NCBI GenBank assembly: GCA_020432045.1
Contig: JAGQHB010000003.1
Coordinates: forward strand, 1 to 47,934
Source of the DNA: Dehalococcoidia bacterium
Lineage (GTDB): Bacteria; Chloroflexota; Dehalococcoidia; Tepidiformales; Tepidiformaceae
DNA: 47,934 bases
Reading direction: 5' to 3'
Shown here: positions 15,112-16,582 of the stretch, in pieces
Layout: every line of letters begins with the position of its first letter
How positions within the stretch are numbered: position 1 is the first letter of the stretch
The notes under the pieces: generated by a model
Database searches by the model: none
Told to the model about the DNA's origin: nothing
The model's input: the letters and a program-made list of their open reading frames with translations, nothing else
Position numbers and translations under genes: made by a program

Positions 15112-15681
15112 ATGGACGACGAGATCCCTGTGCCGGACGTGCTGCGCCGCCTCGACACCGATTTTAACGCGCGGGGCCGGTACTGTTCCGATTGCGGGCA
15201 GCTGTTGCTCTCCGGCATGCGGGGCGGCCGCGAGCGAAGGCACTGCGTCTGCGGCTTTGTCCAGTACCGAAACCCGGCTGTCGGGGTGGCAGTCATCGTC
15301 TGCGATGAGCGAGGAGCGGTCCTCCTTGGCCGGCGAGTGAAGGGCGCGTACGCAGGGTTGTGGTGCATCCCGTGCGGGTATGTCGAGTGGGGGGAAGAGA
15401 TCCGCGAGGCCGCCCGGCGGGAGTTCATCGAAGAAACTGGACTGGACGTCGAACCGGGGGCGGTCATCGCGGTGCATTCGAACTTTCACAATCCGAAACA
15501 GTTGACGGTTGGCATCTGGTTTGGCGGACGCGTCACGGGCGGGCGATTGTTCCCGGCCGATGGCGAGCTCGATGCTCTCGAGTACCATCTGCCTGCCGAG
15601 CCGCCGCCACTGGCCTTTCCGACCGATGCGATAGTCCTCGCCGACCTTGCTCAGCGGACGATGCCGGGCCTCGGCCAGTAG
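15112..15681 (+). CDS. Nudix hydrolase with N-terminal zinc ribbon
   Basis: A 189-residue hydrolase. A zinc ribbon (CSDCG at residue 25 and HCVCG at residue 44) precedes a Nudix domain with a perfect box: Gly89, Glu95, Arg103-Glu104 and Glu107-Glu108. The reading GYVEWGEEIREAARREFIEE is fully conserved, so it should be active on a nucleoside diphosphate linked to another group. The zinc ribbon recalls NudC (NADH or NAD-capped RNA), but NudC-specific C-terminal motifs are not seen. The 3' end overlaps the convergent sodX by 31 nt. Confidence 0.88.
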   Translation: MDDEIPVPDVLRRLDTDFNARGRYCSDCGQLLLSGMRGGRERRHCVCGFVQYRNPAVGVAVIVCDERGAVLLGRRVKGAYAGLWCIPCGYVEWGEEIREAARREFIEETGLDVEPGAVIAVHSNFHNPKQLTVGIWFGGRVTGGRLFPADGELDALEYHLPAEPPPLAFPTDAIVLADLAQRTMPGLGQ

Positions 15682-16043
15682 CGCCACCGCACGCGCCCGA
15701 GCAGCAGGCGGCGCGGGACCGTTCCAAATACGCGGCTGTCGCTGCTCAGTTCGGGGTTGTCGCCTTCGAGCCAGGCTGCATCGTGGATATCGACGTGCAC
15801 CACGCGCTTCACGATCTCCCGATCGGGCGCTCGCGGATCACAGGCGAGCACGACGTGCCCGGGCCGGGGCAATCGCCGCGAGTAGGCCCCGCGGTCAACG
15901 AGCAGCCAATCGCCGCTGGCGAGCGCGGGCTCCATGCTTTCGCCGGCGACCTCGTACCGGGAGATCCGCCGCGCAAAAGACCAGGCGAAAGCACCCGCGG
16001 CGGCGGCCAGCATGGTTGCTGCGAAAAACGGGGCAGGCCACAT
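15651..16043 (-). CDS. sodX: Nickel-type superoxide dismutase maturation protease
   Basis: A 130-residue membrane-anchored S26 (signal peptidase I-like) protease that trims the NiSOD precursor so that His1 is exposed for nickel binding. An N-terminal helix (FFAATMLAAAAGAFAWSFA) is followed by the catalytic Ser box VAGESMEPALASGDWLLVDR, the Lys box REIVKRVVHV and GDNPELSSDSRVFGTVP. It follows sodN at 48 nt. ATG 16043 gives the expected length, but it lies in the loop of a terminator hairpin with no free ribosome site. TTG or GTG starts at 16082 or 16070 are alternatives, and the hairpin would then lie inside the coding region. Confidence 0.88.
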   Translation of the reverse strand: MWPAPFFAATMLAAAAGAFAWSFARRISRYEVAGESMEPALASGDWLLVDRGAYSRRLPRPGHVVLACDPRAPDREIVKRVVHVDIHDAAWLEGDNPELSSDSRVFGTVPRRLLLGRVRWRYWPRPGIVR

Positions 16044-16058
16044 GTGCAGCCTGCCCCG
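16024..16058 (-). terminator. Intrinsic terminator behind sodN, with the sodX start in its loop
   Basis: On the minus strand CGGGGCAGGC (16049-16058) pairs perfectly with GCCTGCCCCG (16029-16038) around a 10-base loop, and is followed by TTTTT (16024-16028). The sodN stop is 33 nt upstream. The loop TGCACATGTG contains the sodX ATG. It should strongly limit readthrough from sodN into sodX. Confidence 0.8.
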
Positions 16059-16531: not shown

Positions 16532-16582
16532 CTGGTGCTCCCTTGTGATGAGGTGAGGGCCCCGGGATGGGGCGGCACCTTG

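Follow-up and report, generated by a model that had tools for sequence, protein, structure and literature searches.

The sodN-sodX junction

We analysed a window of 47,934 nt, the whole stretch of DNA considered here, from contig JAGQHB010000003.1 of a Dehalococcoidia bacterium (GCA_020432045.1). Its genome (Chloroflexota; 3.48 Mb in 115 contigs, 97% complete) belongs to a family that includes Tepidiforma. The junction carries the following features, listed in the direction of transcription:

16538-16544, minus strand: sodN Shine-Dalgarno (SD) sequence, AAGGGAG (anti-SD duplex -7.8 kcal/mol)
16531-16091, minus strand: sodN, nickel superoxide dismutase (NiSOD) precursor (TIGR02753, 183 bits with a cut-off of 90; Pfam Sod_Ni)
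16082-16080, minus strand: TTG, the alternative sodX start of an earlier note on this DNA (without counterpart in relatives)
16070-15651, minus strand: sodX, predicted NiSOD maturation protease, 139 aa from the proposed GTG 16070 (TIGR02754; start placed by comparison)
16059-16028, minus strand: putative terminator hairpin within the sodX reading frame (fold -29.1 kcal/mol; compensatory changes in relatives)
16043-16041, minus strand: ATG in the hairpin loop, the sodX start of the earlier note, probably internal (not conserved in relatives)
16028-16024, minus strand: T5 tract of the putative terminator (read from the sequence)

The names sodN and sodX, given in the earlier note, are confirmed, as both products score above the cut-offs of TIGR02753 and TIGR02754, the latter matching SodX with 71.6 bits against a cut-off of 63.25. 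SodN carries the nickel hook HCDGPCGVYD and also satisfies the NiSOD family model, and sodX adjoins sodN. SodX is thereby predicted to be the NiSOD maturation protease, with the SodN precursor as its predicted substrate. A search of the host genome (G000, 97% complete) for Fe/Mn and Cu/Zn SOD genes found neither, suggesting that NiSOD may be the sole superoxide dismutase of this bacterium. At its 3' end, sodX overlaps tail to tail, by 31 bp (15651-15681), with a Nudix hydrolase gene on the plus strand (15112-15681).

The hairpin behind sodN and its conservation

Behind sodN, the minus strand reads A-CGGGGCAGGC-TGCACATGTG-GCCTGCCCCG-TTTTT. A GC-rich stem core of 10 bp (16058-16029) encloses a nominal loop of 10 bases and is followed immediately on its 3' side by the T5 tract, as the earlier note had described. 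The ATG 16043-16041, which the same note had placed in the loop, does lie in the nominal 10-base loop; in the minimum-energy fold the stem is lengthened to 14 bp (16059-16028), with internal G-U pairs, leaving this ATG only partly unpaired. The fold energy (z -5.3) was matched by none of 200 shuffled sequences. In a strict scan of 316 kb of stretches of the host genome, used as background, no more than 11 hairpins of the same class turned up, and a crude gene caller placed 10 of these in non-coding sequence. A general pattern scan with a loop limit of 8 omitted the sodN-sodX hairpin, whose nominal loop has 10 bases. The possibility that the structure terminates the plus-strand Nudix gene was rejected, as the plus strand has no T-tract and that gene is about 340 bp away.

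The family is represented by 38 genomes in our collection, and junctions were read in the members where sodN was found. A hairpin lies 17-34 nt 3' of sodN in all 21 family loci compared, whether sodX is adjacent or elsewhere, suggesting that the hairpin belongs to sodN as its terminator; no clear terminator was found behind sodN in the family members L022 and L027 and in genus g12. The stem sequence varies from locus to locus with its pairing retained. Among nine loci (L013, with a bulged stem, was omitted), 97.8% of cells are paired and 7 of the 10 stem pairs carry double-sided changes, counted in arms that were aligned manually with the loop masked, so that the covariation count leans on the chosen register. 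The covariation score was reached by none of 500 shuffles, and the signal was lost when the pairing partners were slid out of register. The earlier note had asked for this comparison and regarded an unconserved stem as speaking against its reading; what was found is a conserved structure whose sequence is not conserved, a result that does not refute the reading.

Most relatives have T-rich tails. L006 and L011, with 3 T in 8, have a poor tract, and L020 and L117 have only 4 in 8. The stable stem present in all loci, together with the poor tracts of L006 and L011, would also fit a hairpin acting mainly as a 3' stabiliser, in which the sodN-sodX transcript is cut or trimmed, the stem protects the sodN mRNA and the excess of this message arises by differential decay, a process described as widespread among operon segments in one report (PMC5927463). 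We consider this explanation quite unlikely, given that the T5 tract of the window and the T-rich tails of most relatives favour termination. Judged from its sequence and conservation, the hairpin is an intrinsic-type terminator of sodN, at which transcription would end.

In genus g13 (Tepidiforma; G012, G029 and others), the sodN and sodX genes are separated by some 26-30 kb. The sodN gene of this genus retains a terminator-like hairpin despite the distant sodX, and its T-tract is poor.

The start of sodX

In 11 loci from nine genera (the window, L003, L006, L007, L011, L013, L015, L019, L020, L021 and L117), the sodX frame continues through the hairpin. An in-frame ATG, GTG or TTG, followed by an open frame, lies 2-13 nt 5' of the stem in 10 of these 11 embedded loci, compared with none of the ten family terminators used as controls, the embedded loci being related by descent and their counts therefore not independent. 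The two sets were split by the location of sodX, and L005 and L008, where sodX starts 3' of the hairpin, were counted as controls. When nine loci were aligned on the first codon of the stem core, the codon at -4 was a start in seven, and every other column from -10 to +3 held a start codon in at most one locus. The exceptions at -4 are L020, with CTG, and L015, with ATG two codons later; L011 deviates from the spacing rule. In L020 (G006), sodX has no canonical start 5' of the hairpin, and the CTG, in the region +11 to +16 behind the sodN stop, stands where the relatives have ATG or GTG.

By this conserved spacing, SodX of the window would start at GTG 16070, which places the terminator inside sodX. 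This codon, lying between the two candidates of the earlier note, is the start that we favour by comparison, and the sodX start is corrected here accordingly. The suggestion that the terminator might fall within a coding region thus stands, counted from GTG 16070 and not from TTG 16082, which was rejected for having no counterpart among the relatives. ATG 16043 is probably not the sodX start.

The N-termini read from the conserved starts mostly share the pattern M-x3-[R/K]-G ... A-P-x-F, followed by a membrane segment. As placed by comparison, the stem arms encode the R-G and A-P-x-F of the SodX N-terminus, right before the membrane segment, and the shared motif appears to be the coding shadow of the stem.

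SD strength was compared between the starts. All ten sodN genes tested have a strong SD (-7.5 to -10.2 kcal/mol). No SD is present at the embedded sodX starts (+1.0 to -4.3 kcal/mol, with a background in sodN coding sequence of -2.7, sd 2.3), and the sodX genes that start 3' of the terminator have strong ones (L005, -9.5; L008, -10.7). Nine embedded and nine other sodX starts differ in SD strength (p = 0.003), an imperfect contrast, since the non-embedded sodX starts of L027, L133 and L135 also lack an SD.

These data bear on the possibility that SodX starts behind the hairpin, for example at ATG 16013, the open frame through the stem being a GC-rich accident and the hairpin an ordinary intergenic terminator. 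L005 and L008 do start there, with their strong SDs, ATG 16013 exists in the window, and the N-terminal residues of SodX are poorly conserved except for those dictated by the stem. In L003, L015 and L021, however, the upstream ATG is the sole canonical start codon (ATG, GTG or TTG) from the sodN stop to the codon of the catalytic Ser (Ser-Met motif), none lying between hairpin and serine, so that the terminator must be coding in these loci unless a non-canonical start is used. The constant spacing of the upstream starts, their absence from the controls and the lack of an SD at ATG 16013 point in the same direction, and we regard a start behind the hairpin as improbable.

The earlier note had also proposed that the hairpin hides or exposes a sodX start in its loop, ATG 16043 being the true start and the hairpin gating translation in the readthrough mRNA. 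The SD-like CGGGGCAGG six bases 5' of ATG 16043 (-7.0 kcal/mol) would suit such a start, and in L169, a locus of another family, a hairpin loop holds the sodX ATG. This SD-like sequence, however, is the 5' stem arm itself, the conserved position is held by GTG 16070, and the loops of L003, L013, L015 and L021 contain no in-frame start, so that within the comparison the loop start is peculiar to this genome. With the conserved start about 10 nt 5' of the stem, gating from the loop seems to us very improbable.

Several junctions depart from the embedded arrangement. In genus g12 of the family (L023-L026, L028-L031 and L196), sodX follows sodN without a terminator; within 0-60 nt past the sodN stop no ATG, GTG or TTG precedes the sodX membrane segment, and sodX is in the sodN frame in 8 of 9 loci, with an invariant ACG at +6. 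Here sodX would need a non-canonical start or readthrough of the stop codon, the latter giving a SodN-SodX fusion. In L169 (G335), a hairpin of 12 bp without a T-tract, located at about +11 to +56 past the sodN stop, carries the in-frame ATG in its loop. The embedded-terminator pattern was not clearly seen in other Chloroflexota, from which nearly all of 40 further stretches read at this junction come. Of 54 further junctions where sodN and sodX are adjacent (mostly from cyanobacteria, the rest from Acidimicrobiia, Chloroflexota and other groups), 13 carry a terminator, mostly 5' of sodX, and the five flagged with a start before the terminator are all doubtful (L062, L072 and L080, with starts inside sodN; L050; L106).

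A proposed terminator embedded in sodX and its known counterparts

We propose that sodN and sodX form an operon in which the sodN terminator is embedded in the 5' coding end of sodX and sodX is a low-yield readthrough cistron, a reading to which we assign a probability of roughly 0.7. In this Chloroflexota family, the hairpin probably keeps the protease scarce by passing only a minority of transcripts. Most polymerases leaving sodN would halt at the T-tract and yield a short, abundant sodN mRNA, and the minority that read through would supply the mRNA for SodX, which would stay scarce. The presence of a conserved intrinsic-type terminator behind sodN, between the gene of the enzyme and that of its protease, makes a ratio-setting role likely, and the suggestion of the earlier note that termination sets the SodN:SodX ratio is supported to that degree. 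A separate weak promoter inside sodN may alternatively serve sodX.

SodX would begin about 10 nt 5' of the hairpin, in the window at GTG 16070. Lacking an SD, this start probably relies on reinitiation by ribosomes coming straight from the end of sodN, 20 nt upstream. Every terminated sodN mRNA would carry the sodX start without a stop codon, and strong initiation there, to judge from PMC4824070, would let ribosomes run off the end of the mRNA and recruit tmRNA; a tmRNA was found in the host genome. A weak sodX start would be expected because the start is present, without a stop, on each terminated message, and the lack of SDs at embedded starts would be expected if ribosomes on terminated sodN mRNA are costly.

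The same geometry could allow ribosome-controlled antitermination, in which prompt initiation at sodX covers the 5' stem arm and disarms the terminator, as at pyrBI, so that sodX translation sets its own transcription. A ribosome initiating about 10 nt from the stem would cover the stem base; this distance is strikingly constant, and the sodN stop lies 10-21 nt further upstream of the sodX start in nearly all loci. Against this, an AUG with an active ribosome-binding site at a similar distance cut termination in E. coli by only ~10% (PMC4824070), the natural sodX starts have no SD, and neither a pause site nor a sensor was identified at the junction, and we consider such control unlikely. A dual-coding terminator with feedback, in which translation of the first sodX codons opens the sodN terminator and readthrough needs reinitiation by sodN ribosomes, is likewise a doubtful proposal. 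If it were true, one RNA element would be terminator, N-terminal coding segment and ribosome sensor, setting the SodX:SodN ratio, and would have persisted in nine genera despite the drift of its sequence.

If the embedded readthrough terminator is the correct reading, a terminator and a protein N-terminus have co-evolved on the same bases across nine genera, with arms that must both pair and encode R-G and A-P-x-F ahead of the membrane segment. The junction would then be a natural example of a geometry known until now from reporters and leader peptides, and genes starting 5' of an embedded terminator would be predicted to avoid SD sequences. A literature search of open-licence papers returned no description of a terminator that lies within the initial codons of a downstream gene in an operon.

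In E. coli, a terminator more than ~27-30 nt behind a stop codon is fully efficient; at shorter distances the terminating ribosome represses it more and more, and terminators less than 100 bp into a coding region perform well (PMC4824070). By this measure, the window hairpin, 31 nt behind the sodN stop, would be expected to terminate efficiently; in several relatives, at 18-26 nt, repression may by analogy be partial and sequence-dependent. In the tR2 construct W48, with a start codon 30 nt and an upstream stop 48 nt before the terminator, termination fell by only ~10%, and the non-stop message halved expression of the upstream gene except where the start had been silenced (PMC4824070). The sodN-sodX junction shares with W48 the order of upstream gene, stop, start and terminator; in W48, termination was efficient and the terminated mRNAs were non-stop. 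Unlike this artificial construct with its active ribosome-binding site, the natural junction has no SD and a shorter distance from start to stem.

In Streptomyces, the sodN-sodX junction is the target of the sRNA s-SodF (PMC3919588). A conserved element between the two genes is common to both systems; in Streptomyces it is a conserved sequence complementary to the sRNA, whereas in the Tepidiformaceae junctions only structure is conserved. A sequence-conserved sRNA target was accordingly rejected for the window: its junction sequence occurs only once in the genome and differs in every relative, and a search for an Fe/Mn SOD gene found none.

The non-stop mRNA of arfA is caused by a hairpin within the ORF. 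This E. coli mRNA, lacking a stop codon, is repressed by trans-translation, as stated in one study (PMC10107115). In both cases a hairpin in a coding region would give a non-stop mRNA; the arfA hairpin sits close to the 3' end of its ORF and serves ribosome-rescue feedback, whereas that of sodX is at the 5' end. The pyrBI attenuator of E. coli is an intrinsic terminator in a translated ORF, near its 5' end (PMC4824070). The comparative start evidence likewise places the sodN-sodX terminator inside an ORF that would be translated; unlike the leader-peptide ORF of pyrBI, with its control by transcriptional pausing, the ORF here is predicted to be a functional protease gene, sodX, matching TIGR02754 above its cut-off.

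In the rpsU-dnaG operon of E. coli, a leaky intergenic terminator reduces expression of the downstream gene. Internal operon termination is also described for Methanococcus maripaludis, in one report (PMC10450193). Like leaky intergenic terminators, the sodN-sodX terminator stands between co-directional operon genes, with the presumably abundant product first and the presumably scarce one second; unlike them, it would lie within the downstream coding sequence itself, with arms that encode protein.
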